Source: Pseudochelatococcus lubricantis
GTDB taxonomy: Bacteria; Pseudomonadota; Alphaproteobacteria; Rhizobiales; Beijerinckiaceae
Reading direction: 5' to 3'
Assembly: GCF_011762225.1 (NCBI RefSeq)
Contig: NZ_JAASQI010000003.1
Coordinates: 186,001 to 250,000, forward strand
Length of the DNA: 64,000 nucleotides
The position numbers and the translations under genes were made by a program. A model generated the notes under the pieces. That model had not been told where the DNA came from and did no database searches. It was given only the letters and a program-made list of their open reading frames with translations. Below are positions 18,548 to 34,669 of this stretch, piece by piece (the stretch's first letter is position 1; every line of letters starts with the position of its first letter).

Positions 18548-20050
18548 ATGCACGACACCGCACACGCTCCCCGACGATTCGAAACGCCGTTCACGCATGA
18601 GGCCGCGAGGAGCGGCGTGTGCCTGTGGCGCGGCGCCGTGCTGGCCGCGGCGCTGATGCTCGGCATGGCCGGCGCGCCCGCCTTCGCGCGCGGGCCGGAG
18701 GCCATCGCCGACCTCGCCAGCGAGGTGATGGACGCCGTCGTCAATATTTCCGCCGCCGAGACGGAAACCGTCACGAAGCGGGGGGAGGTGCCGCCCGCCA
18801 TTCCCGGTTCGCCCTTCGGTGACCTGTTCGACGAGTTCCGCAAGCGTCGCAATGAGGGCGGGCCGCGCCCACGGGGCGCCGAATCGGCGGGTTCGGGCTT
18901 CGTGATCGACGAATCGGGCATCGTCGTCACCAACAATCACGTGATCGGCGAGGCGAACGACATCACCGTGGTGTTCACGGACGGCGCCAAACGTAAGGCG
19001 GAGGTCGTGGGGCGCGACGACAAGCTCGACCTCGCCGTGTTGCGGGTGAAGACCGATAAGCCGCTGAAGGCGGTGAAGTTCGGCAATTCGGAGAGCCTGC
19101 GCATCGGCGACTGGGTCGTAGCGATCGGCAACCCCTTCGGGCTCGGCGGCTCGGTGACGGCGGGCATCGTCTCCGCCCACAGCCGCAACATCGAGCAGGG
19201 ACCCTACGACGACTATATCCAGACGGACGCCGCCATCAACCGGGGCAACTCGGGCGGGCCGCTGTTCAACCTGAAGGGCGAGGTGATCGGCATCAACACG
19301 GCGATCCTGTCGCCCTCCGGCGGCTCGGTGGGCATCGGCTTCGCGGTGCCGGCGGAACTTGCGGCGCCAACCGTCGCCCAACTGCGGGAGTTCGGCGAGA
19401 CGCGCCGCGGGTGGCTCGGCGTGCGCATCCAGCCCGTGGACGAGGACACGGCGGAGGCGCTCGGCCTCGGTGGCCAGGATGGCGCGCTCGTCGCCAGCAT
19501 CGACGGCAAGGGGCCGGCCGCGAACGCGGACATCAAGACGGGCGACGTCATCGTGCAGATCGACGGCAAGCGGGTGAAGGAGCCGCGCGACCTGTCGCGC
19601 ACCGTCGCGGCGATGCCGGTCGGCAAGCGCGTCGACGTAACGCTGCTGCGCGACGGCAAGGAACGCAAGGCTTCGGTGACACTGGGCCGCCTTGAGGACG
19701 GCGAGAAGGCGCAGGCCCAGGCAGCGGGAGAGACCAGCAAGGCACGGTCCGGCCGGACGCTGGGGCTGCGCCTTTCGGAAATCGACGACGAACTGCGCCA
19801 GCAGTATGCGCTGGCGGAGGACATCAAGGGCGTTGTGGTGGTGGAGGTTGAGCCCGATTCGCCCGCCGCCGACAAGCGCATCGAGCCCGGCGACGTGATC
19901 ACGGAAGTGGGCAAGTCGCCGGTGACGGCGCCGGCGGAAGTGGAACGCCGGCTTGAGACGCTGCGCAAGGAAGGCCGCCGCTCGGCGCTGCTGCTGGTGA
20001 CCGGGCGCGACGGCGACGTGCGTTTCGTCGCCATCCGGCTGGAGGAATGA
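18548..20050 (+). CDS. Do-family periplasmic serine protease (DegP-like)
   Basis: Protein of 500 residues: N-terminal signal peptide or anchor (about 26-48), trypsin-like domain with catalytic His131 (TNNHVIG), Asp161 (KLDLAVLRV) and Ser235 (NRGNSGGPLF), and two PDZ domains (about 290-385 and 405-495). The family removes misfolded envelope proteins. It lies in the hflKC-DUF2065 neighbourhood, a protein-quality group. Its stop abuts the convergent serB stop with no spacer. Confidence 0.95.
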   Translation: MHDTAHAPRRFETPFTHEAARSGVCLWRGAVLAAALMLGMAGAPAFARGPEAIADLASEVMDAVVNISAAETETVTKRGEVPPAIPGSPFGDLFDEFRKRRNEGGPRPRGAESAGSGFVIDESGIVVTNNHVIGEANDITVVFTDGAKRKAEVVGRDDKLDLAVLRVKTDKPLKAVKFGNSESLRIGDWVVAIGNPFGLGGSVTAGIVSAHSRNIEQGPYDDYIQTDAAINRGNSGGPLFNLKGEVIGINTAILSPSGGSVGIGFAVPAELAAPTVAQLREFGETRRGWLGVRIQPVDEDTAEALGLGGQDGALVASIDGKGPAANADIKTGDVIVQIDGKRVKEPRDLSRTVAAMPVGKRVDVTLLRDGKERKASVTLGRLEDGEKAQAQAAGETSKARSGRTLGLRLSEIDDELRQQYALAEDIKGVVVVEVEPDSPAADKRIEPGDVITEVGKSPVTAPAEVERRLETLRKEGRRSALLLVTGRDGDVRFVAIRLEE

Positions 20051-20995
20051 TCAGTCGGCCGCGAAATCCTCGCGCTTGTAGCCCTGGATATAGAGAAGTG
20101 CGCTGAGATCCGCCTTCTCGACGCGGGCGTGTGCGGCCGCGGCCACGGCCGGCTTGGCGCGGAAGGCGACACCGAGGCCGGCTTCCTCCAGCATGGCGAG
20201 GTCGTTGGCGCCGTCGCCCACCGCGAGCGTTTCGTGCAGCGCGAGGCCGTGCGCCTCCCGCAGCTCGCGCAGGGTGGCGAGCTTGGCCTCGCGGCCCAGA
20301 ATCGGCTCCTCGACGACGCCGGCCAGATGCTCCTCCTTCACCACGAGGCGGTTGGCGCGGTGCTCGTGGAAGCCGGTGAGCAGCGCGATGCGGCTTGTGA
20401 ACAGGGTGAAACCGCCCGACACCAGGCAGGTGTAGGCGCCGTGCGCGCGCATGGTGCGCACGAGGCGCGCGCCGCCCGGCGTGAGCGTGATGCGCTCGGC
20501 GACGATGCGGTCGACGACGCCGACCGGCAGACCGCGCAGCAGCGCCACGCGCTCGCGCAGCGCCGGCTCGAAGGCCAGCTCGCCACGCATGGCGCGCTCC
20601 GTGATGGCGGACACCTTTGCCTTCAGGCCGACGAAGTCCGCCAGCTCGTCGATGCACTCCTGTCCGATCATGGTGGAATCCATGTCGGCGAGGAAGAGCT
20701 TCTTGCGCCGGCCGAGAAGGGGCTGGACGATGACGTCCACAGGCGCGTCGGCAACCGATTCGCGCAGGCGGTCGGCAATGGCGCGCGGCGAATCGCCCGG
20801 TTCCGGCGTAAACACGAGATCGGCCGCGATGCCGGCATCGAGCCAGCGGGCCGGCGGCGTGCCCGGCAGGGCTTGCGCCGCGCGCCGAACGACGGCATCC
20901 GTGAGGGCGGGCGCGGCCGGATTCGCGACCAGCGTCGCGACATAAGGCGTGACGGGCGGCTGGGGCGTAACGGGCGATTGATCGACTGATGTCAT
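20051..20995 (-). CDS. serB: phosphoserine phosphatase
   Basis: HAD-family phosphatase of 314 residues, last step of serine synthesis. The nucleophile motif DMDST is at 104-108 (Asp104, Asp106), with SGGFTLF and [10 protein letters not shown] as motifs II and IV. The N-terminal 95 residues are a diverged ACT-like part. I took the ATG at 20995; a TTG four codons upstream would reach 21007. The start lies 11 bases from the miaA start on the other strand. Confidence 0.95.
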
Positions 20996-21006
20996 GCGAA
21001 CCAACA

Positions 21007-21936
21007 ATGATTGAGAACGAAGAGCGGCACGGGACGCGGGCTATCCTCATCGCAGGCCCGACGGCATCCGGCAAGTCTGCTCTTGCGCTCGCGCTCGCGC
21101 AACGGTGCGGCGGCGTGGTGGTAAATGCCGATTCGATGCAGGTCTATGCCGGTTTGCGAATCATCACCGCACGGCCGACCGAGGAGGAGGAGCGGCTCGC
21201 GCCGCACCGGCTCTATGGCCATGTCGACGCGGGCGTGAACTATTCCGTCGGGCGCTGGCTGGAGGACGTGACGGCGGCACTCGCCGACGTGTGGCGGGCC
21301 GGCGGCCTGCCGGTCGTCACCGGCGGCACGGGGCTCTACTTCAAGGCGCTCATCGAAGGATTGTCCGAGATACCGCCCGTGCCGGAGGAGGTGAGGGCGC
21401 AGGTGCGCGAGCGGGCGGCGGGGCGCGAGACGCCCCTGCTCTATGCGGATTTCGCGGCGCGCGACCCGGAAACCGCGCTGCGCATAAGCCCCACGGACCG
21501 GCAGCGGATATTGCGCGGGCTGGAGGTGCTGGCGGCGACGGGACGGCCGCTCGCCTCCTTCCGCAACATGCGGCGGGCGGGGCCGCTCGCGGGGCTGGCG
21601 GTGCGGAAGGTGTTTCTCGCGCCCGGACGGGCGCAGGTCAACGACCGGATCGACGCGCGCTTCCTCGCCATGATGGCGGCCGGCGGCCTCGATGAGGTGC
21701 GGCATCTCGCCGCGCGCGGGCTCGATCCGGCGCTGCCGGCCATGCGGGCGCACGGCGTGCCGTGGCTCATCCGCCATATCCGCGGCGAGATCGGCCTCGA
21801 CGAGGCGGTGGCGGGCGCGCAGGCCGATACGCGCCACTACGCCAAGCGGCAGTTCACCTGGTTCCGGCACCAGCTCGGCGGTTTCGAGTGGCTGACGCCG
21901 GAGGAGGCGGCCGACAGGCTGCCGGCCGGCGCCTGA
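21007..21936 (+). CDS. miaA: tRNA dimethylallyltransferase
   Basis: Protein of 309 residues that prenylates A37 of tRNAs reading UNN codons. P-loop GPTASGKS at 17-24, [19 protein letters not shown] and [12 protein letters not shown] are diagnostic. An in-frame ATG at 20989 would overlap serB. The starts of miaA and serB are head to head with almost no spacer, so each promoter must lie inside the other gene. Confidence 0.95.
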
Positions 21937-21939
21937 CCG

Positions 21940-22620
21940 TCAGAGGGCGGCGAGATCGGCCGGCATATCGGCCTGCAGCACGACGACCTTGGTGCCGAGC
22001 GGCACGCGGCTGTGCAGGTCGATGATGTCCTGGTTGAGCAGGCGGATGCAGCCGCTCGACAGCGACAGGCCGATGGAGGACGGGTCGTTGGTGCCGTGGA
22101 TGCGGTAGAGCGTATCCCGGTCGCCCTGATAGAGGTAGAGGGCGCGCGCGCCGAGCGGGTTGTCGAGGCCCGGCGGCATGCCTTTGCGGTATTTCTCCAG
22201 CTCCGGCTGGCGCTTGATCATTTCGGCGGGCGGCGTCCACACCGGCCATTCGGACTTGCGGCGGATGGTGGCGCGGCCGTTCCAGTCGAACCCGTCGCGG
22301 CCCACGCCGACGCCGTAGCGGATGGCGCGGCCTTCCGGGCGCACGAGGAACAGGAAGTGGTTGCCGGGATCGACGACGATGGTGCCGGGCTCCTCCGGCG
22401 TATCGTAGGCGATCTCGCGGCGGAAGAACTGCGGGTCGATCTTCACGAGATCGATGGCGGGAACGGGGAAGCGCTCGGATGGAATCTCGGCATACATGCG
22501 CACGAAACCCGGATCGATGCCGGGAACTGCCGACTCGATCACGGGTGGGGACTGGGTCACGCAGCCTGCGGCTGCAAGGGGGGCACCGAAAACGAACACA
22601 CGCCTGCTGATCGCGAACAT
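21940..22620 (-). CDS. L,D-transpeptidase (YkuD), probable lipoprotein
   Basis: Protein of 226 residues with an N-terminal signal and lipobox-like LAAAGC (Cys20), then a YkuD catalytic domain with His175 (HGTNDP) and nucleophile Cys191 in SSGCIRL. Such enzymes make 3-3 peptidoglycan links or attach outer-membrane proteins to the wall. GAGG at five bases upstream picks this ATG over longer frames. Convergent with miaA, 3 bases apart. Confidence 0.93.
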
Positions 22621-22828
22621 CATATCCTCAAGACTGACAACGTTTGTGATGGGCCTCGCGCGAAGTGAAGGCAATTTCAAGACGTGTGGGCCGACGAAAG
22701 GTTCCATCTGCGACATGGTGCCCCAAATCCCTTAACGTGTGGTATTTTCATCACGAATATCAAGCGCTTCGCTTCAATTTCCCGTGATTGCGGAACCTGA
22801 TGCGAATCGAAAAATAGGAAAATAATCC

Positions 22829-22857
22829 TTGACAGCGTGACGCTGGTCCGCTATGTT
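22829..22857 (+). promoter_or_regulatory. sigma70-type promoter of the GTA cluster
   Basis: A consensus -35 TTGACA at 22829-22834, a 17-base spacer and -10 TATGTT at 22852-22857 point toward the GTA genes. It is the best promoter match I noticed in the window. Transcription would start near 22864, about 160 bases before the g1 start, and runs first through the terminator at 22922-22962. Confidence 0.7.
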
Positions 22858-22921
22858 TCAGCCATGCTCAGAAAGTGTGTCCGGATGGCGCGGCCATTGA
22901 CCGGGCAGCGTGCGGGCCGGA

Positions 22922-22962
22922 CCCGTTGTCGATGAGGCAGCCTCGTCGACAGCGGGTTTTTT
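22922..22962 (+). terminator. intrinsic terminator inside the GTA leader
   Basis: Arms 22922-22938 and 22940-22956 pair over about 17 positions with two G-U pairs and a three-base loop, followed by six T. It sits between the promoter at 22829 and the first GTA gene at 23027, so it either ends a small RNA of about 100 nt or attenuates GTA transcription. The gene to the left runs away from it, so it does not belong to that gene. Confidence 0.8.
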
Positions 22963-23026
22963 CATGGGCCGGTTGTCCGCGCCCGAAACGAATGCCGATT
23001 ACCGACATCATGAACGAGGAAGGGCC

Positions 23027-23611
23027 ATGCCTCAGCCTGATCGTGCCGCCCAGGTGGGCGGCGGCGACGATGACCTCTGGAAAGAAGCGCGCCGCCTCTA
23101 CGAACAGACGAACACGCCCGCGCAGGATATCGCGGCGCTGCTCGGCAAGTGCAGCACACGCGCGCTCTACCGGCTCGCGGAGCGGCGCGGCTGGGGCAAG
23201 CGGCCGAAAGGCGGGAAGCCGGAAGGGCGGGCGCCGGCGGACGGCGGCAAGCTGGAACGCGCGGCGAGCCTCAACGGGCGCCGGCAACTGATCCAGAAGC
23301 TGGAAAAGACAGTGGCCCGCGAGATCGCCGCCATCGACAGCCGCGTGCGGGAATACGCGGCCGAGACGGGTGGCGGCGCGCCCGGCGCCGACCACGAGCG
23401 CCGCGCGCGGGCGCTGGCGACGCTGGCGCGCACGCTGCGGGAACTCGCGGCCATCGACAGGGCGGACGCGCAATTGGCGGAAACGCAGACCGGGGAGGAC
23501 GAGGATGAAGAATTCCCGCGCGACGCCGCGGCGCTGCGCGACACGCTTGCGCGGCGCCTTGAGCAACTGTCTCGCCAGCGGCCAGCTCGGAGCGTTCCTC
23601 GCGACCTGTGA
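23027..23611 (+). CDS. GTA g1, small terminase-like protein
   Basis: Protein of 194 residues with a helix-turn-helix-like start (WKEARRLYEQTNTPAQDIAALLGKCSTRALYRLAERRGW) followed by a charged helical part (about 85-190). By position and fold it is the RcGTA g1 small terminase, which regulates DNA packaging by the large terminase. The ATG follows GGAAGGG. It overlaps g2 by 107 bases. Confidence 0.8.
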   Translation: MPQPDRAAQVGGGDDDLWKEARRLYEQTNTPAQDIAALLGKCSTRALYRLAERRGWGKRPKGGKPEGRAPADGGKLERAASLNGRRQLIQKLEKTVAREIAAIDSRVREYAAETGGGAPGADHERRARALATLARTLRELAAIDRADAQLAETQTGEDEDEEFPRDAAALRDTLARRLEQLSRQRPARSVPRDL

Positions 23612-24878
23612 CGCGGCGGCGCTGCGCTATCTCATGCATGCCTGGGCGGATGTCTGGGCGCGCGACGACCAGTTGCCGCCGGACTGCGCGCAGGGCGGCG
23701 GGGACTGGACGACGTGGCTCGTGATCGGCGGGCGCGGCGCCGGCAAGACGCGCACGGGCGCGGAATGGGTACGGGGCATGGCGCTCGGCCTGCCGCCGTT
23801 CAGCGGGCGGCCGGTGGCGCGCATCGCGCTGGTGGGCGAGACGATCGCCGACGTGCGTGAGGTGATGGTGGAGGGCGTCTCGGGCGTGCTCGGCGTGCAT
23901 CCGCGCGGCGAGCGCCCGGCGTGGATACCGACGCGCCGCAGGCTGGAATGGCCGAACGGCGCGGTGGCGCAGGTCTTTTCGGCGGAAGACCCGGAAGCGC
24001 TGCGCGGCCCGCAATTCGCCGCCGCCTGGTGCGACGAACTCTGCAAATGGCGGCAGGCGGAGGAAACCTGGGACATGCTCCAATTCGGCCTGCGGCTCGG
24101 CGAACACCCGCGCCAGCTCGTCACCACGACGCCGCGCCCTGTGCCGCTGCTGAAGCGGTTGCTGGCGGACCCGCGCGCCGCCGTCACCCGCGCCGCGACG
24201 CGCGCCAACGCCTGGAACCTCGCGCCAGCGTTTCTCGATGCCGTGGTGGGGCGCTACGCGGGCACGCGGCTCGGGCGGCAGGAACTCGACGGCGAGCTGA
24301 TCGAGGAGCGGGCGGACGCGCTGTGGACGCGCGCCATGATCGACGCCGCGCGCATCGACGCGCCGCCGCCGCTGGCACGCATCGTGGTGGCGGTCGATCC
24401 GCCCGCAACGTCGGGCAAACGCGCCGACGCCTGCGGGCTGGTGGTGGCGGGACGCGACGAGGCAGGCCTGTTCCACGTGCTGGAAGACGCCACCATGGAG
24501 CGCGCCCGGCCCGCCGAATGGGCGGCGCGCGCCATCGCGCTCTACCATCGCCATGGGGCGGACGCGCTCGCCGTGGAGGTTAATCAGGGCGGTGAAATGG
24601 CCATCGCCGTATTGGGCGAGGTCGACGCCTCCGTGCCCGTCACGCCGGTGCGCGCCACGCGCGGCAAGTACCTGCGCGCGGAACCCGTCGCCGCCCTCTA
24701 CGAACAAGGCAGGGTGCGCCACGCCGCCGCGTTCCCGGCACTTGAAGACGAGATGACCGATTTCGGGCCCGGCGGGCTCTCCAACGGCCGCTCGCCGGAC
24801 AGGCTCGACGCGCTCGTCTGGGCCATCACCAGCCTGATGAGCGTGAAGAGCGGCGCGCCCCGGATCAGGCGGCTGTGA
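23505..24878 (+). CDS. GTA g2, large terminase
   Basis: DNA-packaging ATPase/nuclease of 457 residues. Walker A GGRGAGKT at 75-82, Walker B region QFAAAWCDELCKW, and a C-terminal RNase-H-like nuclease with VAVDPPAT and the ending GLSNGRSPDRLDALVWAITSLM. The ATG after GGGGAGG lies inside g1. The last 27 coding bases are the first part of a tandem repeat that continues to 25251. Confidence 0.93.
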   Translation: MKNSRATPRRCATRLRGALSNCLASGQLGAFLATCDAAALRYLMHAWADVWARDDQLPPDCAQGGGDWTTWLVIGGRGAGKTRTGAEWVRGMALGLPPFSGRPVARIALVGETIADVREVMVEGVSGVLGVHPRGERPAWIPTRRRLEWPNGAVAQVFSAEDPEALRGPQFAAAWCDELCKWRQAEETWDMLQFGLRLGEHPRQLVTTTPRPVPLLKRLLADPRAAVTRAATRANAWNLAPAFLDAVVGRYAGTRLGRQELDGELIEERADALWTRAMIDAARIDAPPPLARIVVAVDPPATSGKRADACGLVVAGRDEAGLFHVLEDATMERARPAEWAARAIALYHRHGADALAVEVNQGGEMAIAVLGEVDASVPVTPVRATRGKYLRAEPVAALYEQGRVRHAAAFPALEDEMTDFGPGGLSNGRSPDRLDALVWAITSLMSVKSGAPRIRRL

Positions 24879-25251
24879 CGGCTGGACTACGTCGGCGTCC
24901 GCCGGGCTTCACGCTTTTTTGAAGAGAGCCTCGCATTGGCTCGGGCGCGCGTTCGCGCTTGCCGCGCTTTGCGCGGGAGAGGGCGGCGCGCCCCGGATCA
25001 GGCGGCTGTGACGGCTGGGCGACGTCGGCGCCCGCCGGGCTTCACGCTTTTTTTGAAGAGAGCCTCGCATTGGCTCGGGCGCGCGTTCGCGCTTGCCGCG
25101 CTTTGCGCGTGAAGAGCGGCGCGCCCCGGATCAGGCGGCTGTGACGGCTGGACTACGTCGGCGTCCGCCGGGCTTCACGCTTTTTTTGAAGAGGACCTCG
25201 CCTTGGCTCGGGCGCGCGTTCGCGCTTGCCGCGCGTTGCGCGGGAGCGGGC
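24852..25251. repeat. triple tandem repeat, unit 133-134 bp
   Basis: Three near-identical units start at 24852, 24985 and 25118, each opening with GGCGCGCCCCGGATC and containing GACTACGTCGGCGTCCGCC-like and GGGCTTCACGC plus a run of 6-7 T. The first unit includes the end of the terminase gene; 25252 onward shows the start of a fourth copy that decays. Unit length is not a multiple of three and no gene fits. It fills the gap between g2 and the displaced tape-measure gene. Confidence 0.92.
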
Positions 25252-25288
25252 GGCGCGATGTTCCGGGCGGTTTTGAAGGGAGAAGGGG

Positions 25289-25924
25289 ATGAGCGATATC
25301 GGTTCCGCCGGCGGGTTTGCCGAGAACCTGACGGCGAGCGTGGAGGGTGCGCGGGAGGCGATGCTCGACCTTGAAGACGTCGCCCAGCGCTTCGGCAATA
25401 CCGTCACCGGCGTGTTCTCGCGCGCCGTCGTCAACGGCAAGCAGTTCGACGACGTCGTCCGGACGCTCGGCACGCGGCTGACGCAACTCGCCCTGCAGGC
25501 GGCGCTGAAGCCGCTGGAAACGGCGGTGACATCCGGGCTGGGAAGTCTGCTCGACAAGGGTGTCAGCGCGGGCATCGGCTCGCTTGGCACGGCGCTGTCC
25601 GGCAACCTGCTGACGGCGAGCGCGGCGGGCAATGTCGTCGCGGGCGGCGCGGTGCGGCCCTTCGCCGACGGCGGCGTCATCGCCGCGCCGACCTATTTCC
25701 CGCTCGGGCGTGGGACCGGGCTCATGGGCGAGAAAGGCGCGGAAGCCATCATGCCGCTGACGCGCGGCCCGGATGGCAAGCTCGGCGTGCAGGCTGCCGG
25801 CGGGGGCGCGTCGACCGTCAACGTCACCATCAACGCCAGCGACGCGGAAAGCTTCCGCCGCTCCGAGGCGCAGGTCGCGGCCGCGCTGGCGCGAGCCGTG
25901 GCGCGCGGGCGGCGCGGACTGTAG
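25289..25924 (+). CDS. GTA tail tape measure protein (g11-like)
   Basis: Protein of 211 residues, close to the roughly 219 of RcGTA g11. N-terminal amphipathic helices (SVEGAREAMLDLEDVAQRFGNTVTGVFSRAV), a Gly/Ala/Leu-rich middle (about 75-115), and the typical tape-measure ending FADGGVIAAPTYFPLGRG, GLMGEKGAEAIMPL. It sets the tail length. In RcGTA this gene lies between g10.1 and g12, but here it sits between terminase and portal, just after the tandem repeat. No second tape measure is seen near 32.1-32.7 kb. GGGAGAAGGGG precedes the start. Confidence 0.88.
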   Translation: MSDIGSAGGFAENLTASVEGAREAMLDLEDVAQRFGNTVTGVFSRAVVNGKQFDDVVRTLGTRLTQLALQAALKPLETAVTSGLGSLLDKGVSAGIGSLGTALSGNLLTASAAGNVVAGGAVRPFADGGVIAAPTYFPLGRGTGLMGEKGAEAIMPLTRGPDGKLGVQAAGGGASTVNVTINASDAESFRRSEAQVAAALARAVARGRRGL

Positions 25925-25997
25925 CGCTCACCGAAAGCATCGCGCCGGCGCCATCGGATCGGCACGGCCGTCCATCCCGAAACATCAGGAAACGATC

Positions 25998-27200
25998 ATG
26001 GCTTCTTTCATCGGCCGCCTTTTCGGCGGCGGAGGGCGCGCGGCCGCGCCCGTTCAGGAGGCTTCCGGGCCGCCGGAGCGCAAGACCTCGCGCACGGCCG
26101 CGCTGTTCGCCGTCTCGGAGCCCGGCCGGCCGCTGTGGACGCCGCGCGATTATCAGGCACTTGCGCGGGAGGGTTTTCAACGCAACGCCGTGGTACACCG
26201 CTGTGTGCGGCTCGTGGCGGAGGCGGCGGCTTCCGTGCCGCTGCTGCTGAAGGCCGGCCGGCGCGAGTTCGACACGCATCCGCTGCTGTCGCTCATCGCG
26301 CGGCCCAGCCCGCGCGAGGCGGGAACGGCGTTTCTGGAGGCGGTGTACGGCCACCTGCTGGTGGCGGGCAACGCCTATGTCGAGGCGGTTTCGCTCGACG
26401 GCACGCCGCGCGAGCTTTATGCGCTGCGGCCCGACCGCATGCAGGTGGTGCCGGGGCCGGACGGCTGGGCCGCGGCCTACGACTACCGCGCCGGCCACAG
26501 TGCTGTGCGTTTCCGGCAGGAGGGGGAGGTGCCGCCGATCCTGCATCTGCGGCTGTTCCATCCCGCCGACGATCACTATGGCCTGTCGCCCATGGAGGCG
26601 GCGGCTGTGGCGCTCGACATCCACAACGCCTCGGCGGGGTGGAACAAGGCGCTGCTCGACAACGCGGCGCGGCCCTCCGGCGCGCTGATCTACGCCGGGC
26701 CCGACGGCGCCAACCTGACGGACGCGCAGTTCGAGCGGCTGAAGGTGGAACTGGAGGCGCAGTTCCAGGGGGCGGCAAACGCCGGCCGCCCGCTGCTGCT
26801 GGAAGGCGGGCTGGACTGGCGGCAACTGTCGCTGACGCCGGCGGAGATGGACTTCGCGGAAGCGCGGGCCTCCGCCATGCGGGAAATCGCGCTCGCCTTC
26901 GGCGTGCCGCCGCTGATGCTCGGCCTGCCGGGCGATTCCACCTACGCGAACTACGCGGAGGCGAACCGGGCGTTCTGGCGGCAGACGGTGCTCCCGCTGG
27001 TGCGGCGCACCGCGCAGGCCATGGCGCACTGGCTGGCGCCCGCCTACGGCGGCGGCCTCTCGCTCGACCCCGATCTCGACAGCATCGAGGCGCTCGCCGG
27101 CGAGCGCGAGGCGCTGTGGCGGCGCATCACGGCGGCGGATTTCCTCTCCGCCGACGAGAAGCGCGAGGCCGTGGGCTACGGGAAGGGAGACCGGCGATGA
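25998..27200 (+). CDS. GTA g3, portal protein
   Basis: HK97-type portal of 400 residues (RNAVVHRCVRLVAEAAASVPLLL, HPLLSLIARPSPREAG, GNAYVEAV, GLSPMEAAAVALDIHNASAGWNKALLDNAARPSGALIY, FGVPPLMLGLPGDSTYANYAEANRAFWRQTVLP). Twelve copies form the DNA gate at the head vertex and the docking site for the terminase. The start follows CAGGAAACGATC. Overlaps the next gene by 4 bases. Confidence 0.95.
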   Translation: MASFIGRLFGGGGRAAAPVQEASGPPERKTSRTAALFAVSEPGRPLWTPRDYQALAREGFQRNAVVHRCVRLVAEAAASVPLLLKAGRREFDTHPLLSLIARPSPREAGTAFLEAVYGHLLVAGNAYVEAVSLDGTPRELYALRPDRMQVVPGPDGWAAAYDYRAGHSAVRFRQEGEVPPILHLRLFHPADDHYGLSPMEAAAVALDIHNASAGWNKALLDNAARPSGALIYAGPDGANLTDAQFERLKVELEAQFQGAANAGRPLLLEGGLDWRQLSLTPAEMDFAEARASAMREIALAFGVPPLMLGLPGDSTYANYAEANRAFWRQTVLPLVRRTAQAMAHWLAPAYGGGLSLDPDLDSIEALAGEREALWRRITAADFLSADEKREAVGYGKGDRR

Positions 27201-27424
27201 CGGACATCGTGACGGAGCTGCCGGCTGCCGTGCTCGCGCCGGTGGCGGAAAGCCTCATCGCGCGCGGCGACCTCGCCCATCTCGCACTGTTCCTGTGGGC
27301 GGGCGGCGCCTCGGCGCTGCTCGTGCTGACGCTGCGCGACCTTGCCGGCGCCAACCGGCGTTTCGACGCCTTCGTGCGCGAACTCGCGCGCTTCAATCGC
27401 CGCCACGACGGGGAAGACGGCTGA
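27197..27424 (+). CDS. GTA g3.5-like small membrane protein
   Basis: Protein of 75 residues with one hydrophobic segment (LALFLWAGGASALLVLTLRDL) and a basic C-terminal helix. The start ATG overlaps the portal stop (ATGA). Position and size match RcGTA g3.5. Function unknown. Confidence 0.75.
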   Translation: MTDIVTELPAAVLAPVAESLIARGDLAHLALFLWAGGASALLVLTLRDLAGANRRFDAFVRELARFNRRHDGEDG

Positions 27425-27439
27425 CAAGGAGAATTGACC

Positions 27440-27643
27440 ATGGCCCGTTCGATCAACCGCGCAAGGCCGGTGCCGAAGCGCGCCACCGCGCCGCGCAGGC
27501 CGGCGCCGCAAAAGGCCGACGAGGCGATCTCGGCCTTCATCCGCGTGCTGGAGCGGCTGGACGCCGCGCCCGCCGCGCCGCTGCCCACGGGGCTGGGGGC
27601 GAAGCAGAACAAGGCGCTGGACCGCGCGCCGGAGGGCCGGTGA
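27440..27643 (+). CDS. small basic protein in GTA cluster
   Basis: Protein of 67 residues, Arg/Lys/Pro/Ala-rich (MARSINRARPVPKRATAPRR) with a short helix (ADEAISAFIRVLERLDAAP). AAGGAGAATTGACC precedes the ATG. The stop overlaps the g4 start (TGATG), so it is coupled to the protease gene. I know of no standard RcGTA gene at this position and cannot assign a function; a DNA- or scaffold-binding role is only a guess. Confidence 0.65.
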   Translation: MARSINRARPVPKRATAPRRPAPQKADEAISAFIRVLERLDAAPAAPLPTGLGAKQNKALDRAPEGR

Positions 27644-28221
27644 TGGAGGAACATCTGGTGACGGGCCGTCTTGCCGGCGGGCTGCGTCTTGCCGGGCGGC
27701 TGCCGGAGCTGAAGGCGGTGCCGAGCGTGATAGGGCCTGTCGACGGGGAAGGTGTGTTCGAGGGCTACGCGAGCCTTTTCAACGTGCCGGACCTCGGCGG
27801 CGACATCATCGAACCCGGCGCCTTCGCGGCGAGCCTCGCGCGGCGCGGTGCGGCGGGAGTGCGGCTGCTGTGGCAGCACGACCCCGGCGAGCCGCTCGGC
27901 ACCTGGCTGTCGCTCGTGGAGGACGCGCGCGGGCTGAAGGTGCGCGGGCGCCTGAGCCTCGACGCGCGGCGGGCGCGGGATGTCGAGGCGCTGCTGAAAA
28001 CCGGAGCCGTGGACGGCCTGTCCATCGGCTTCCGCACGGAACGCGCGCGGCGGGAAGCCTCCGGCGTGCGCAGGATATCCCGGCTCGACCTGTGGGAGGT
28101 CTCCATCGTGACCTTTCCCATGGCGCCGGGAGCACGGGTGCTCGCCGCGGCGCCCGCGACGAAAGGCAACCCGCCGCTGGCCGAGGCCATCCGGCGGGTG
28201 ACGGCCGAACTTCATTCCTGA
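27643..28221 (+). CDS. GTA g4, HK97-family prohead protease
   Basis: Serine protease of 192 residues that trims the capsid protein during head maturation. Features: FEGYASLFNVPDLGGDIIEPGAF, catalytic His79 in WQHDPGEPLG, and Ser127 in DGLSIGFRT, followed by LDLWEVSIVTFPM. Starts inside the stop of the preceding small gene. The next gene is its substrate, the capsid. Confidence 0.93.
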   Translation: MEEHLVTGRLAGGLRLAGRLPELKAVPSVIGPVDGEGVFEGYASLFNVPDLGGDIIEPGAFAASLARRGAAGVRLLWQHDPGEPLGTWLSLVEDARGLKVRGRLSLDARRARDVEALLKTGAVDGLSIGFRTERARREASGVRRISRLDLWEVSIVTFPMAPGARVLAAAPATKGNPPLAEAIRRVTAELHS

Positions 28222-28235
28222 ACGGAGATATGCCG

Positions 28236-29561
28236 ATGACCGTTGAATACGATGTTGCCACGCTGCCGACCGGCGCGCCCGAGACCAAGGTGGCGCACGA
28301 CAGGGCTTCGCATGGCGAGGTTGCCGCCGCCTTCGCGGAGTTCTCGCGCGCCTTCGCCGCCTTCCGCGAGGCCAACGACGCGCGCATCGACGCGCTGGAG
28401 ACGCGCATGGCCGGCGATCCCGTGATCGAGGACAAGGTCGCGCGCATCGACCGGGCCGTGGACGAGACCAAAGGCAGGCTCGACCGGCTGATGCTGGAGG
28501 CGCGCCGGCCCGCGCTCGCAGGGATCGAGGGGCGCGCCGCCGATCCGGTGGTGGAGGAGCACCGGAGTGCGTTCGCCGGCTACATGCGGGGCGGCGAGAC
28601 GGCTGGACTGAAGGCGCTGGAGCTGAAGGCGGGCGGCGCCCGCGCCCTCTCGGCGGGATCGGGGCCGGACGGCGGCTATCTGACGCCGGCGGCGGTGGAG
28701 CGGGACGTGCTGGCGCGCCTCGGCGACATCTCGCCCATGCGAGCGCTCGCCTCCGTGCGGCTTATCTCCGGCGCGGCCTACAAGGGCGCGGTCACGAAGA
28801 CGGCGGCGGGCGCCGGCTGGGTCGCGGAGACGGGCGCGCGGGCGCAGACCGACACGCCCGTGCTGGCGGAACTCGACTTTCCCGCCCTCGAACTCTACGC
28901 GCTGCCCGCCGCGACGCAGACCCTGCTCGACGACGCGGTGGTCAACATCGAGGAATGGCTCGTCTCGGAGGTGGAAACGGCGTTCGCCGAGCAGGAGGGC
29001 AGAGCCTTCATCGAAGGCAGCGGCACGGGCCAGCCGAAGGGGGTCGTCAAGTATCCGACTGCCGCCCACGCGGACTGGGAATGGGGCAAGCTCGGCACCA
29101 CCGTGACGGGCGCATCCGGCGCATTTCCGGCGAGCAACCCGGCCGATATCCTGCTCGATCTCATCTACAGCCTCAAGGCGGGCTACCGGCAGAACGGCGT
29201 CTTCCTGATGAACCGGAAAGTGCAGAGCGCCGTGCGCAAGCTGAAGGGCGGCGACGGGCACTACCTGTGGCAGCCGCCAGCCACCGCCGACCAGGCGGCA
29301 TCGCTGTTCTCTTTCCCCATCGTGGAGGCGGAGCATATGCCGGACATCGGTGCCGACAGCCTCTCCATCGCCTTCGGGGACTTCCGGCGCGGGTATCTCG
29401 TCGTGGACCGCGCGGGCGTGCGCGTGCTGCGCGATCCGTATTCCGCCAAGCCCTACGTGCTGTTCTACACCACGAAGCGCGTGGGCGGCGGCGTGCAGGA
29501 CTTCGACGCCATCAAGCTGCTGAAGTTCGGCACTTCCGCCGCGCCCGCGGCAGGCGGTTAA
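28236..29561 (+). CDS. GTA g5, HK97-fold major capsid protein
   Basis: Protein of 441 residues: a helical N-terminal delta-like region (about 25-100) that g4 removes, then the HK97 fold (GPDGGYLTPAAVERDVLARL, KTAAGAGWVAETGA, EEWLVSEVETAFAEQEGRAFIEGSGTGQPKG, GDFRRGYLVVDRAGVRVLRDPYSA). GGAG eight bases upstream picks this ATG over one two codons earlier. Its stop overlaps the stop of the antisense protease gene. Confidence 0.95.
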   Translation: MTVEYDVATLPTGAPETKVAHDRASHGEVAAAFAEFSRAFAAFREANDARIDALETRMAGDPVIEDKVARIDRAVDETKGRLDRLMLEARRPALAGIEGRAADPVVEEHRSAFAGYMRGGETAGLKALELKAGGARALSAGSGPDGGYLTPAAVERDVLARLGDISPMRALASVRLISGAAYKGAVTKTAAGAGWVAETGARAQTDTPVLAELDFPALELYALPAATQTLLDDAVVNIEEWLVSEVETAFAEQEGRAFIEGSGTGQPKGVVKYPTAAHADWEWGKLGTTVTGASGAFPASNPADILLDLIYSLKAGYRQNGVFLMNRKVQSAVRKLKGGDGHYLWQPPATADQAASLFSFPIVEAEHMPDIGADSLSIAFGDFRRGYLVVDRAGVRVLRDPYSAKPYVLFYTTKRVGGGVQDFDAIKLLKFGTSAAPAAGG

Positions 29562-30364
29562 CGCCACTCCGCCGTGCGGCCCCAGCGGTTCAGGGTGCCG
29601 TCGATGAAGCCGCGCTGGGGGGCGACGAGCACGCCCTGCGTGTAGAGGCCGCACTGGCTGTTGCCCGCGCCCTTCGCCCAGGTGGAGACGGCGATGACGG
29701 CGCCGTCTCCGCGCACGATGGGGCCGCCTGAGTCGCCCTGGCAGACGCCCGCGCCGGGGCGCTTCCCGAGCCCGGACGGATCGGCCGCCCACAGCAGGAT
29801 CTTGCCCGGTCCGTAGGGCTCGACGGTGACGAGTTCCGCCGCGCGGAAGGTGCCCATCGTTTTCGGGTCGCCCTCCGCCGCCGTGCCCCAGCCCAGCGCG
29901 GTGACGGGCGTGCCGGCGCGCGGCAGCTTCGCCGCGCTGAGGGCAGCCGGCGCGAAACGGGCGGGCAGGGGCGCGGGCAGGCGGATGAGGGCGAGGTCTA
30001 TGGAGCGCTGGCGCGCCTCTATCGCGCCCGCGTTGTAGCCGCCGTGCGTCGCGACCTCGGCGGGCTCCAGCAACACCGGCTCGCCGGAGGGGTCGCGGAA
30101 ATGGACGCGGATCTCGCGCCCGCCCGCGACGCAATGGCCGGCGGTGAGCACCGCATCCCGCGCCAGCACGATGCCGGAACACACGCCGCCGCCCTTCGAC
30201 AGCACCATCACGGTGCGCGCCTTCAGCGGGCCGCCGTTCTCCGCGCCGCGGACGATGGCGGCGGCCGGCGTGGCGGCCAGACCAGCAACAAGCGAGGCAA
30301 CGACCGTTGCCACCGCGACATGCACGCGCGCGTTCACGCGCGCCGATTTCCGAAGGATCATCAT
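29558..30364 (-). CDS. secreted trypsin-like (S1) protease inserted in GTA cluster
   Basis: Protein of 268 residues: signal peptide (about 11-36, cleavage near AAA-IVRGAENGG), then a chymotrypsin-fold domain with His77 (TAGHC), Asp123 (SIDLALIRL) and Ser212 (CQGDSGGP). Cys62/Cys78 and Cys208/Cys233-type pairs fit the family's disulphides. It is the only gene on the minus strand inside the GTA cluster; its stop overlaps the capsid stop and its ATG overlaps the g6 ATG. Any promoter must lie within g6. A role in particle release, or a passenger gene, is possible; nothing in the sequence decides. Confidence 0.9.
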   Translation of the reverse strand: MMILRKSARVNARVHVAVATVVASLVAGLAATPAAAIVRGAENGGPLKARTVMVLSKGGGVCSGIVLARDAVLTAGHCVAGGREIRVHFRDPSGEPVLLEPAEVATHGGYNAGAIEARQRSIDLALIRLPAPLPARFAPAALSAAKLPRAGTPVTALGWGTAAEGDPKTMGTFRAAELVTVEPYGPGKILLWAADPSGLGKRPGAGVCQGDSGGPIVRGDGAVIAVSTWAKGAGNSQCGLYTQGVLVAPQRGFIDGTLNRWGRTAEWR

Positions 30365-30929
30365 GACCCCGCTTCTCCTGACCGGACCGGCAGCCGAGCC
30401 GGTGACGCTCGCCGATATCAAGGGTTACCTGCGCCTCGACCATGACGACGAGGACAGGCTCATCACATCGCTTATGACAGCCGCGCGGCTGATGGTCGAG
30501 GCCGAAAGCGGCCGTTGCCTCGTCGCGCAGACCTGGCGGCTGGTGCTCGACCGCTGGCCGGCGGCAGGCCCGATCCGGCTGCCGCTTTCGCCCGTCATCA
30601 GGCTCGACGGCGCGCGCGTGTTCGATGCGGCGGGCGCCGCGACGGCGGTGCCGGCGACGCATTTCCATGTGGATACGCTCGCCGAACCGCCGCGTCTTAT
30701 GCCTGCGGCGGCACTGCCGGCGCCGGGACGGCCGTTCTCCGGCATCGAGATCGATGTCACGGCCGGCTACGGAGAGGCCGCCGCCGACGTGCCGATGCCG
30801 CTGCGGCAGGCGGTGCGGGCCATCGTGGCGCGCTGGTACGAGCATCGCGGCGACGGCACCGGCGAGGTGCCGGCCATTCCGCCCGAGGCGCTGGCGCTGA
30901 TCGCGCCCTACCGGCGCGGGAGGCTGTGA
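30363..30929 (+). CDS. GTA g6, head-tail adaptor
   Basis: Protein of 188 residues of the HK97 gp6/DUF-type adaptor family (EPVTLADIKGYLRLDHDDEDRLITSLMTAARLMVEAESGRCLVAQTWRL ... YGEAAADVPMPLRQAVRAIVARWYEHRGD). It sits under the portal and starts the connector. Preceded by AAGGATCATC. It resumes the plus-strand operon after the inverted protease gene and is followed one base later by g7. Confidence 0.9.
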   Translation: MTPLLLTGPAAEPVTLADIKGYLRLDHDDEDRLITSLMTAARLMVEAESGRCLVAQTWRLVLDRWPAAGPIRLPLSPVIRLDGARVFDAAGAATAVPATHFHVDTLAEPPRLMPAAALPAPGRPFSGIEIDVTAGYGEAAADVPMPLRQAVRAIVARWYEHRGDGTGEVPAIPPEALALIAPYRRGRL

Positions 30930-30930
30930 G

Positions 30931-31269
30931 ATGGCGGTGCGCGGAATCGGCGAGCGGCGGCGGCATTTCTGGCTGGAGGCGCCGGTGGAGCAAAGCGACG
31001 GCGCGGGCGGCGTGGTGCGCCGCTACGCACGCCGCGCCCGCCTGTGGGGAACGCTGGAGGCGGTCGGCGCGTCGTCCGGCGCGGCGCGGGAGGCGGCGGA
31101 GCGGCGGGAGATCGCCACGACGTGGCGTATCGTGACCGGCTTTAGGGCCGATATCGACGGCCGCAGCCGGCTGCGGCTCGGCGGCCGTGTGTTCGCGGTG
31201 CTGTCCGCCGCCGACCCCGACGGGCGGCGCCGTGGCCTCGTCGTGGTGGCGGAGGAGATCACGCCATGA
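30931..31269 (+). CDS. GTA g7, head closure / stopper protein
   Basis: Protein of 112 residues of the SPP1 gp16-like head-tail joining family (RHFWLEAPVEQSDGAGGVVRRY ... LWGTLEAVGASSGAAREAAERREIATTWRIVTGFRADIDGRSRLRLGGRVFAVLSAADPD). It closes the filled head. Overlaps g8 by 4 bases. Confidence 0.88.
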   Translation: MAVRGIGERRRHFWLEAPVEQSDGAGGVVRRYARRARLWGTLEAVGASSGAAREAAERREIATTWRIVTGFRADIDGRSRLRLGGRVFAVLSAADPDGRRRGLVVVAEEITP

Positions 31270-31700
31270 GCGGGGCGGAAGCGAAAGGGCCGGTGCTGGC
31301 GCTGCGCGAGGCCATCGTCACGGCACTGGCGGGGGATGCGGCGCTGACGGCGATGCTCGGCGGCGCGACGATCCGCGACGAGGTCCCGCGCGGCGCGCGC
31401 GGTGTGTACGCCGTGTTTTCGGAAACGCGGCTGCGCGACTGGTCGACGGGCAGCGACCAGGGCCACGAGCAGGACGTCGCCATCAGCGTGTGGTCGGTGG
31501 AGGGCGGGGCGCGGATGGCGCTGCGCGCGGCGGCGCGGATCGGCGAACTGCTGGACGGAGCGGCGTTGACGCCAGACGGCCACCGGCTGGTGAACCTGCG
31601 GGTCACGTCGTCCGAAACGCGGCGCGATACACGCGCCGACCGCTCCCGCGTGGTGCTGCGGCTGCGGGCGGTGACGGAAGTACTCTCAACCCGGAATTGA
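31266..31700 (+). CDS. GTA g8, tail terminator
   Basis: Protein of 144 residues (LREAIVTALAGDAALTAMLGG ... VFSETRLRDWSTGSDQGHEQDVAISVWSVEGG ... DGHRLVNLRVTSSETRRDTRADRSRVVLRLRAVTE), DUF3168-like. It caps the tail tube and joins it to the head. Coupled to g7 by a 4-base overlap. Confidence 0.88.
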   Translation: MSGAEAKGPVLALREAIVTALAGDAALTAMLGGATIRDEVPRGARGVYAVFSETRLRDWSTGSDQGHEQDVAISVWSVEGGARMALRAAARIGELLDGAALTPDGHRLVNLRVTSSETRRDTRADRSRVVLRLRAVTEVLSTRN

Positions 31701-31711
31701 TGGAGGAGCGG

Positions 31712-32122
31712 ATGGGTGCCCAGAAAGGCAAGGACCTGCTGCTGAAGGTCCGCGACGGCGGCGGCGTCTTCGTGACGGTGGCGGGCCTGCGTGCCCGCCA
31801 GATCGCGTTCAACGCGGAGGCCGTCGACGTGACGCACGCGGAATCCGTCGGGCGCTGGCGTGAGCTGCTGGCGGGGGCGGGCGTGCGGCGCGCGGCGGTG
31901 ACGGGCGCCGGCGTGTTCAAGGATGAGGCGTCCGACGCGCTTGTGCGCCAGAGCTTCTTCGACGCGACCATCGCCACCTGGCAGGTGATCGTGCCCGATT
32001 TCGGGCGGATCGAGGGGCCGTTTCAGGTGACGAGCCTCGAATACCGCGGCGACCACGCCGGCGAGGTGACGTTCGATCTGGCGCTGGAATCGGCCGGCGC
32101 CCTCGTTTTCAACGCATTGTGA
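31712..32122 (+). CDS. GTA g9, major tail tube protein
   Basis: Protein of 136 residues (MGAQKGKDLLLKVRDGGGVFVTVAGLRARQIAFNAEAVDVTHAES ... WRELLAGAGVRRAAVTGAGVFKDEASDALVRQ), the family that stacks as hexamers in the tail tube. GGAGG just upstream picks this ATG; another ATG four codons earlier overlaps the g8 stop. Confidence 0.93.
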   Translation: MGAQKGKDLLLKVRDGGGVFVTVAGLRARQIAFNAEAVDVTHAESVGRWRELLAGAGVRRAAVTGAGVFKDEASDALVRQSFFDATIATWQVIVPDFGRIEGPFQVTSLEYRGDHAGEVTFDLALESAGALVFNAL

Positions 32123-32145
32123 GGACGGTCATCGGGAGGACGATT

Positions 32146-32679
32146 ATGGCCAATCGCAGACGGGGCGAGATCGAGGCGGTGCTCGCCGGAGAGCGCCATA
32201 AGCTGGTGCTGACGCTGGGCGCGCTCGCGGAGCTGGAGGGCGCCTTCGGCGTCGCGGACCTCGCGGCGCTCGGCCGGCGGCTGGCGGCGGGCGGGCTCTC
32301 GGCGCGCGATATCACGCACATCCTGCAGGCGGGACTGCACGGGGCGGGCAGCAGCCTCGACGCCTCCCGCCTGCCGGTGGCGCGGGCACTGCCGGAAATC
32401 TTGCGCGCCGTGACGGAGCTGCTCACCGCGACCTTCGGGCAGGAGGAAGCCGCAGGCGGGCCTTCGCACGCCGTTGACGCGGCGCGGCCTTTTCCGTGGG
32501 AGGAGGCGATGCGGCTGGGTTTCGGCGTTTTGCGGCTGTCGTCGCGCGCCTTCTGGGGCATGACGCCGCGCGAGCTGGCGGCGGCGTCGGCGGGCATCTA
32601 TGGGCCGCCGCGCGCGCCGCTTTCCGGCGGGGAGCTTGCGGCGCTGATGCGCGCCTTTCCGGACGACACGGGAGCATGA
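32146..32679 (+). CDS. GTA g10 and g10.1 fused: tail assembly chaperone
   Basis: Protein of 177 residues. The first 105 match RcGTA g10 (GEIEAVLAGERHKLVLTLGALAELEGAFGV ... ARDITHILQAGLHGAG). After a short linker the last 50 (FPWEEAMRLGFGVLRLSSRAFWGMTPRELAAAS) look like g10.1, the small tail assembly chaperone, which is a separate gene in Rhodobacter. Both parts act in tail assembly in siphophages. No internal start with a ribosome site is obvious before the second part. GGGAGG precedes the ATG. Confidence 0.82.
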   Translation: MANRRRGEIEAVLAGERHKLVLTLGALAELEGAFGVADLAALGRRLAAGGLSARDITHILQAGLHGAGSSLDASRLPVARALPEILRAVTELLTATFGQEEAAGGPSHAVDAARPFPWEEAMRLGFGVLRLSSRAFWGMTPRELAAASAGIYGPPRAPLSGGELAALMRAFPDDTGA

Positions 32680-32681
32680 CG

Positions 32682-33317
32682 ATGCCGGCAGGTTTTCATG
32701 AAGTGCGCTTTCCGCTCGATGTAACGCCCGGTGGGCGCGGCGGGCCGGAATGGCGCACCGACGTTGTGACGCTCGGCTCCGGCGCGGAGCATCGCAACGC
32801 GCGCTGGGTGCAATCGCGCAGGCGCTACGACGCCGGCTACGGCATCAAGACGCTCGATGCGCTGCACGCAGTGCTCGTCTTCTTCGAGGAACGGCGCGGC
32901 AGGCTTTTCGGCTTCCGCTGGCACGACCGGATGGATTGCCGCTCGGGAGCGCCCTCGCGGACACCGGCCTTCACCGACCAGCGGATTGGCACCGGCGACG
33001 GCGCGGCGCGGACGTTCCAGCTCGTGAAAAGCTACGGGACGGGCTACGCGCCTTATGTGAGGCGGATCGCCAAACCGCTGGCAGGAACGGTCTCCGTCGG
33101 CCTCGATGGAGCCGCGCTGCCGGCGGAGGCGTTCGATGTCGACACCGCGACGGGGCGCGTGACACTCGCGCAGGCGCCGCAGGCGGGGGCGGCGGTGACG
33201 GCCGGGTTCGCGTTCGACGTACCCGTGCGCTTCGATACCGATGCGCTTGGCATCGATTTCGCGGCGTTCTCGGCCGGCGTCATCCCGGCCATTCCGCTCG
33301 TCGAAATCCTGGATTGA
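32682..33317 (+). CDS. GTA g12, distal tail protein
   Basis: Protein of 211 residues (DUF2460 type): FHEVRFPLDVTPGGRGGPEWRTDVVTLGSGAEHRNARWVQSRRRYDAGYGIKT, FRWHDRMDCRS and the C-terminal VPVRFDTDALGIDF. It forms the hexameric distal ring of the tail. GGAG seven bases upstream picks the second of two in-frame ATG codons. In RcGTA the tape measure would precede this gene; here g10 directly does. Confidence 0.92.
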   Translation: MPAGFHEVRFPLDVTPGGRGGPEWRTDVVTLGSGAEHRNARWVQSRRRYDAGYGIKTLDALHAVLVFFEERRGRLFGFRWHDRMDCRSGAPSRTPAFTDQRIGTGDGAARTFQLVKSYGTGYAPYVRRIAKPLAGTVSVGLDGAALPAEAFDVDTATGRVTLAQAPQAGAAVTAGFAFDVPVRFDTDALGIDFAAFSAGVIPAIPLVEILD

Positions 33318-33329
33318 AAAGGAGGCGCC

Positions 33330-34211: not shown

Positions 34212-34657
34212 TCGCGCGCGCTGCCATTGTCGCGCAGGCGCGAAGCTGGATCGGCACGCCGTACCTGCATCAGGCGGCGCTGAAGGGCGTGGGCTGCGAC
34301 TGCCTGGGGCTCGTGCGCGGCGTCTGGACGGCGCTGTACGGCCGCGCGCCGGAAACGCCGCCGCCCTACAGCGCCGACTGGGCGGAGGCGGGCGGCGTTG
34401 AGACCCTGCGCGACGCGGCGCTGCGGCACCTCCGGCCGGTGAGCCCGGACGCCATCCGGGCGGGCGACGTGCTGCTGTTCCGCTGGCGCGCGCATGTGCC
34501 GGCGAAGCACCTCGCCATCGCCAGCGAGGCGGGGCCGGACGGCGCGCGCATGGTGCATGCGCACGACGGCGCGGCCGTGTGCGAGGTGGCGCTGTCGGGG
34601 TGGTGGCGGCGGCACCTCGCCGGCGCCTTCTCGTTTCCCGATTCTCTCGACCAGTGA
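34208..34657 (+). CDS. GTA g14, NlpC/P60 peptidase
   Basis: Cysteine peptidase of 149 residues that cuts the peptidoglycan peptide during entry. Catalytic Cys32 in GCDCLGLVRGVW and His101 in KHLAIAS. Located between hub and megatron as in RcGTA and coupled to g13 by an ATGA overlap. Confidence 0.93.
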   Translation: MIARAAIVAQARSWIGTPYLHQAALKGVGCDCLGLVRGVWTALYGRAPETPPPYSADWAEAGGVETLRDAALRHLRPVSPDAIRAGDVLLFRWRAHVPAKHLAIASEAGPDGARMVHAHDGAAVCEVALSGWWRRHLAGAFSFPDSLDQ

Positions 34658-34669
34658 AGGAGGGCGCGG

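Follow-up and report, generated by a model that had tools for sequence, protein, structure and literature searches.

The GTA operon of Pseudochelatococcus lubricantis is probably controlled by a processive antitermination region of the lambda pR' and PalpB type, in which GafZ would be the factor. This reading comes from the sequence of a 64,000-nt stretch of contig NZ_JAASQI010000003.1 (the window, to which all positions below refer) and from its comparison with relatives. RNA polymerase would start at A22864 from a near-consensus promoter and would be held by sigma at a -10-like hexamer occupying positions -1 to +5. Without a helper, it would yield an RNA of about 99 nt ending at 22957-22962 in GTA-off cells. 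Once the gafYZ operon is on, GafZ would bind a palindrome in the promoter spacer and load on the paused polymerase; the loaded polymerase would then pass the leader terminator and, later, a set of terGTA-like repeats, resulting in transcription of the cluster. A regulator on a GGA-N6-TCC dyad probably also gates the promoter jointly with gafYZ.

Promoter, leader terminator and gene cluster

The preliminary description of this DNA had proposed a near-consensus promoter (TTGACA-N17-TATGTT), a long intrinsic terminator with six T about 60 bases past its start, and GTA genes that start only past the terminator, and these three features were confirmed. The promoter lies on the plus strand, as do the other features described here unless stated otherwise. 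Its -35 element TTGACA (22829-22834) and -10 element TATGTT (22852-22857) are separated by a 17-nt spacer, and 10 of their 12 bases agree with the consensus. It is the sole sigma-70-like match on both strands of positions 20000-38000, where shuffled sequences gave 0.6 +/- 0.8 matches. The predicted transcription start is the A at 22864, the seventh base after the -10 element. The end of the -35 element and the spacer are overlapped by a palindrome, CAGCG-TGA-CGCTG (22833-22845), which is a candidate GafZ-binding element, and the -10-like hexamer CATGCT (22863-22868) is a candidate sigma-dependent pause element. Further on, a TGTG (22876-22879) represents the TGYG motif with which the conserved part ends; we take this motif to resemble the elemental pause sequence, with a partial fit. 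On the other side, the dyad TAGGAAAATAATCCT (GGA-N6-TCC, 22815-22829) abuts the -35 element and is a probable operator.

The leader terminator (22919-22962) consists of a 19-bp stem, a 3-nt loop and six T. The hairpin occupies 22919-22959, with a G+C core at 22922-22956 and the loop at 22938-22940, and the T run occupies 22957-22962. Relative to the predicted start, the stem starts at +56 and the G+C core at +59, and the RNA from the start to the last T is 99 nt long. The RNA 22918-22962 folds with -32.9 kcal/mol compared to -12.3 +/- 2.7 for shuffled sequences (z -7.6, with 0 of 200 shuffles as good), and its hairpin has the lowest energy among the 15 strict terminator matches (hairpin length 46 nt or less) in the window, both strands included. 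A loose terminator scan did not exceed chance, with 5 matches where shuffles gave 7.6 +/- 2.7; the evidence for the terminator was therefore taken from the strength of the stem and from the comparison with relatives. By its sequence, this locus carries an intrinsic terminator between promoter and first gene, a property that not all loci share.

The first GTA gene, g1 (23027-23611), starts at ATG 23027, well past the hairpin that ends at 22962; the ATG is preceded by GAGGAAGG and the two sister genomes have a similar start, with the N-terminus MPQPDRA corresponding to MPRPDRA and MPLADRA. No Pfam family scored above its cut-off for g1, which is called small-terminase-like from its place and its homologues. 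The large terminase follows at 23520-24878 (PF03237, 6.6e-30; PF17289, 5.3e-28; the start is approximate, as the ORF opens at 23370), and portal, capsid and tail genes and the GTA_TIM megatron extend over 25998-38530 (PF04860, PF05065, PF06199, PF11836, PF09931 and PF13547). Pfam matches were obtained for 7 of the 10 cluster proteins tested, one of them a protease on the opposite strand. Terminase, portal, capsid, tail and GTA TIM-barrel megatron genes in one strand order identify the cluster as RcGTA-type. The protease is trypsin-like (PF00089, 6e-23) and is encoded at 29558-30421 on the minus strand, between the capsid gene and the next structural gene. Between terminase and portal, the ORF at 25289-25924 had no Pfam match; it may encode a tape-measure-like protein, for which this would be an unusual place.

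The element and leader terminators in relatives

The promoter is part of a 66-nt element. A sequence-only model built from 24 copies of it matched 201 of the 397 genomes searched from the order Hyphomicrobiales. A DNA search with positions 22720-23200 as query matched 23 of 60 genomes, its own included, mostly over about 22810-22884. In a class-wide sample the model matched 9 of 385 genomes, four of which came from the same family, the own genome among them; of four of the five matches outside this family, L331, L332 and L334 precede a terminase and L333 does not. Scanning the genome collection with a strict pattern returned at least 117 stretches, and the 80 matches listed were from Hyphomicrobiales by name apart from a few 'Proteobacteria' MAGs, one Rhodobacteraceae MAG and Rhodovulum sp. 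PH10.

To describe the element, the best-listed matches among the 201 element-bearing genomes were sampled. Of 139 loci scanned, 4 scored below 40 and were dropped; once multiple records of a single site had been combined, 119 genomes contributed 128 distinct copies. A GTA large terminase (TerL) lies downstream on the same strand in 104 of these 128. The counts that follow refer to these 104 GTA-linked loci, one per genome, and omit the 24 copies with no TerL match in the sequence examined, some of which have short flanking sequence and some of which are dispersed copies. The -35 element reads TTGACA in 86 of 104 loci and TTGAC in 99, the -10 element conforms to TA...T in 96, and the predicted start is an A in all 104. 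With positions counted from this inferred start, A+1 is accompanied by T+5 in 93 loci. Parts of the palindrome were found in about two thirds of the loci (ACGCT in 69 of 104, AGCG in 72 of 104), and covariation of its half-sites across loci is weak. TGYG occurs within +10 to +18 in 87 of 104, and conservation reaches background past about +17.

The -10-like columns are part of the model by which most loci were detected, the viral-contig sample being the exception: for this reason a separate pattern, ending at the -10 element, was used on 45 viral contigs. A+1 and T+5 were present at 15 of 20 TerL-linked sites and at 0 of 25 unlinked sites (p = 4.5e-8), the latter representing 16 distinct sequences (0 of 16). 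Four of the five TerL-linked exceptions carry TACAAC or TATAAC in the same place and the fifth is shifted by one base. Three of the 20 TerL-linked loci (L265, L270 and L282) share their element core with a genome locus.

Leader terminators were then counted by a strict definition (energy of -12 kcal/mol or lower and -0.5 per nt or lower, at least 5 T in 8, within +1 to +160). They were present in 40 of 104 GTA-linked loci, compared to 3.6% of shuffled sequences, 1 of 104 antisense sequences and 7 of 412 downstream windows. Among 48 genera, designated by GTDB-type labels, 24 contained at least one, with 3.3 expected from shuffles. The enrichment was seen again in the viral-contig sample, where 9 of 20 loci had a strict terminator but none of the 20 antisense sequences and none of 80 windows did. 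In a sample of named genomes it was present in 21 of 76 loci, Ancylobacter aquaticus and A. tetraedralis being among the relatives that have one, compared to 2 of the 76 antisense sequences and 1 of 283 windows. These samples partly overlap, 19 of the 76 named-genome loci sharing their element core with the first set. A loose definition extending over +1 to +300 gave a weaker contrast (59 of 104, versus 32% of shuffles, 19 of 104 antisense and 21 of 103 downstream). Well-sampled genera can have few or none, as the strict terminator was found in 0 of 11 loci in one and 2 of 11 in another. Seen in 40 of 104 loci, the leader terminator is not an invariable component of the system.

Coordinates could be assigned to 37 of the 40 strict positives. 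Their hairpins have unrelated sequences, start at +14 to +118 and end at +41 to +149; 23 of 37 start at +14 to +28 and 24 of 37 end by +60. Conservation of the hairpin in related GTA leaders, which the preliminary description had put forward as a check, holds for the recurrence of a terminator (40 of 104) but not for the hairpin sequence. As 24 of 37 end by +60, they leave little room for an aptamer or a leader peptide, which makes a factor loaded at the promoter likely. In a genome of another order (G436), the same type of GTA promoter is present (L331, 1490-1800) and a hairpin of the form GGGCCGG...CCGGCCC-TTTT was noted by eye before the first gene.

A second candidate termination zone, terGTA-like, overlaps the end of the terminase gene at 24847-25257, where 3.1 tandem repeats of 133 bp contain inverted repeats and runs of six to seven T. 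Both sister genomes have arrays after the terminase as well (2.2 x 134 and 2.0 x 152), and none was found in 56 relatives outside the genus. When three units were folded, the outer two gave a long hairpin, only modestly more stable than shuffles (z -2.4 and -1.4), and the middle one did not (z 0.6, no better than shuffles). In the 56 relatives for which the end of TerL was available, a strict terminator was found in the leader of 24 and after TerL in 1, with 0 and 2 in control windows inside TerL. Where found, the terminators of this order thus sit in the leader, whereas the one reported for Caulobacter comes after the first gene.

gafYZ and the control of the operon

The genome encodes a single DUF6456 protein, which is GafZ-like (281 aa; PF20057, 6e-45), and a GafY of 132 aa with a DnaA C-terminal helix-turn-helix (PF08299, 4e-8). 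The two genes overlap by 4 nt and form an adjacent gafYZ pair as in the Caulobacter type, on another contig than the GTA operon (C1 versus C3). Across the order, the GafZ domain was found in 200 of 201 element-bearing genomes and in 110 of 196 other genomes (p = 1e-30, a value not corrected for relatedness); the domain was missing from one element-bearing assembly, G245, whose completeness is 93%. Sherlock and Fogg have described gafA genes of this order that are split (PMC9638019).

The GTA promoter and the gafY promoter have the dyad in common. The exact sequence TAGGANNNTAATCCT occurs at two sites in the 4.63-Mb genome, one in each of these promoters, and the gafY promoter carries a second near-match. 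When one mismatch was allowed, 6 matches were obtained genome-wide compared to 4 for a reversed control pattern, so that the argument for the dyad is its place and not its number. The form GGA-W6-TCC with TA on either flank accompanied the GTA element at 32 of 80 loci and occurred at 6 of 20 gafYZ loci, and elsewhere it was found 0 times in 286,657 bp (the background count takes each palindrome once and leaves aside 150 bp surrounding the element). From this pattern, the dyad is a probable operator for a regulator common to the GTA promoter and gafYZ. The protein that binds it may be GafY or a repressor resembling RogA; the genome encodes four S24-type proteins, one of them below the family cut-off, and none was identified as RogA.

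Antitermination of GTA genes by GafZ is already known. The preliminary description had held that known GTA control acts at initiation, a view out of date since Tran and Le published GafZ antitermination for Caulobacter in 2024 (PMC11150451, from which the following is taken as far as the accessible text goes). In Caulobacter, GafZ needs a palindrome between the -10 and -35 elements (ZBE), and its mutation reduces GafZ binding to background and eliminates GTA production. Throughout the cluster GafZ co-localizes with RNA polymerase and Nus factors, and it enables polymerase to read through terminators, including E. coli rrnB T1. The Caulobacter -35 element is a degenerate AATCAT that depends on GafY and IHF; a near-consensus version makes the promoter about sixfold weaker but active with or without GafYZ. 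The terminator there is formed by three 150-bp direct repeats after the first gene, which encodes the large terminase. The system described here resembles Caulobacter GafYZ/PgtaT/terGTA, as far as the latter is described there, in its RcGTA-type cluster, in gafYZ (DnaA-like helix-turn-helix and DUF6456), in a palindrome between -35 and -10, and in about three repeats of 130-150 bp with inverted repeats after the terminase, the last in this genus only. By the same account, it differs from Caulobacter in having a consensus -35 element in place of a degenerate one and an extra terminator before the first gene, in a dyad that abuts the -35 element where the Caulobacter YBE lies at -123 to -113, and in the sequence of the palindrome. 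The accessible parts of that paper name neither a leader terminator nor a pause element. A paper on GTA antitermination in Bartonella is cited in the available portion of PMC13236601.

Two other antiterminator systems share the layout of the promoter region, as judged from the portions of the reports at hand. At Pseudomonas aeruginosa PalpB, a -10-like CACGAT lies at -1 to +5, and antitermination by AlpA requires A+1 and T+5 of this hexamer (PMC9371919); the terminator tB begins at +54 (PMC7969949). The likeness covers the element in the spacer (here a candidate binding element), the -10-like hexamer at -1 to +5 with A+1 and T+5, and a terminator before the first gene (tB at +54; here the stem at +56 and its G+C core at +59), but the target of PalpB is the alpB lysis operon and not a GTA. 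Lambdoid Q requires a binding element in the -35/-10 spacer together with a -10-like sequence (PMC6606751). Q/pR'/tR' combines a late-gene promoter that has this spacer element, sigma-dependent pausing at the -10-like sequence, and a terminator downstream; these have counterparts here in the form of sequence signals only, and unlike the lambdoid arrangement, gafYZ lies on another contig than the operon. A -10-like sequence in the initially transcribed region, common to Q and AlpA, was found in 93 of 104 GTA-linked loci and, on viral contigs, at 15 of 20 linked versus 0 of 25 unlinked sites. Antiterminators including AlpA are reported to be unlike GafZ in sequence and predicted structure (accessible text of PMC11150451). 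In Rhodobacter capsulatus, the C-terminal part of GafA binds an RcGTA promoter fragment containing -35, -10 and start (PMC9638019). GafA (PMC6363796, PMC9638019) belongs to the same activator family and is a single polypeptide, whereas GafYZ is split here; in the sections of this work available to us, neither a leader terminator nor antitermination is described.

Regarding the leader terminator, the preliminary description had left the choice between antitermination and a separate RNA. Recurrent terminators, Q/AlpA-type signals and the presence of gafYZ argue for antitermination, and this half of the earlier interpretation is, as a reading of sequences, well supported by comparison. A more specific form of the proposal, which we advance tentatively and consider rather doubtful, is that the Hyphomicrobiales GTA promoter has retained the late-gene switch of phages: it fires without a dedicated activator, pauses, and is held mainly by the proximal terminator until GafZ loads. 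The contrary arrangement, with initiation as the real switch as in Caulobacter, would have GafY or a RogA-like repressor act at the dyad, GafZ provide processivity and the terminator serve as a backup against leaky starts. We keep it because the dyad abuts the -35 element and is shared with gafYZ; Caulobacter GafY contacts domains 3-4 of RpoD and is an activator of both promoters (PMC11150451), and about half of the sampled genera lack a strict leader terminator and keep the element. It is nevertheless unlikely: 99 of 104 loci have TTGAC at the -35, in contrast to the degenerate AATCAT at which GafY is required in Caulobacter, and the enrichment of leader terminators demands a reason.

The remaining explanations would dispense with a factor loaded at the promoter or with a role in GTA control, and we consider each of them very improbable. 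In classical attenuation, a leader peptide, a riboswitch or an RNA-binding protein would choose between a terminator and an antiterminator fold. A 23-codon arginine-rich frame does begin at ATG 22864 and reaches into the hairpin, but this ATG is replaced by ACG, ATC or ATT in some relatives and a leader peptide was rejected on this ground; conservation stops at about +17, and in 23 of the 37 located hairpins the stem begins between +14 and +28. No Rfam family reached its gathering score in the leader (three weak matches were all on the other strand), and a riboswitch or other known RNA family was rejected accordingly. Scarcely more probable is a separate small RNA gene of about 100 nt formed by promoter and terminator, the GTA genes using another promoter. 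Promoter and terminator are complete and the RNA is well folded (z -4.65, mostly owing to the terminator itself). Against it, the scan of 18 kb detected no second sigma-70-like promoter, a GTA TerL follows 104 of the 128 copies of the element, no sequence is conserved past about +17 and hairpin ends vary from +41 to +149; with 24 of 37 hairpins ending by +60 and no Rfam match, the separate RNA found no support. That the hairpin has no role in GTA control, being a chance hairpin or the remnant of a lost upstream gene, would agree with more than half of the relatives examined having no strict terminator, but it is hard to reconcile with the enrichment in three partly overlapping samples versus several controls, antisense sequences giving 1 of 104. 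The gene upstream (21940-22716, minus strand) is divergent, so no co-directional neighbour uses this terminator.

The search found no paper dealing with GafZ and a pause, and among the titles listed none concerned leader terminators or a pause element at GTA promoters. Within the literature searched, what is new is the order-wide element with a consensus -35, a -10-like hexamer, leader terminators and an operator probably common with gafYZ. GTAs spread any host gene and the cells that make them die, so the site of the off-switch matters; Hyphomicrobiales include symbionts, methylotrophs and pathogens. If antitermination at the leader is correct, a leader in which transcription starts and stops governs many GTAs of the order, GafZ can be placed beside Q and AlpA among the antiterminators for which a loading site and a pause are defined, and the 66-nt element can serve as a simple DNA marker for GTA promoters. 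This reading predicts a short RNA, about 99 nt here, in non-producing cells. If, in addition, the promoter is held mainly by its proximal terminator, elongation and not initiation would be the step at which GTA production, and the death of the producer cell, are chiefly controlled, an emphasis opposite to that in Caulobacter.

Further occurrences of the element

Elsewhere in its own genome, the element has four weak partial matches (14-23 nt), one of them within a long ORF. One other genus has up to 13 matches per genome (L140-L145 of G293; L027, G054; L079, G216; L094, G309). In nine copies of this genus with no terminase match in the sequence examined, the -35 element, ACGCT and A+1/T+5 are kept, and the dyad is present in 7 of the 9. 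These copies sit before or against varied chromosomal genes and may represent either an enlarged GafZ regulon or a promoter that has spread.

A blastn search with positions 22700-23700 gave no match among 'phages'. In the same division, the sole record with a GafZ-like match was MW462191.1, a sequence of 103 kb filed as 'Bacteriophage sp.' that contains chromosomal genes, a GTA cluster and the promoter element (L349, 40000-80000). It was rejected as a phage, its gene content pointing to a misfiled bacterial contig. Its GafZ-like gene, located by tblastn, lies behind a gene for a DNA-binding protein and near a sulfur acceptor gene.
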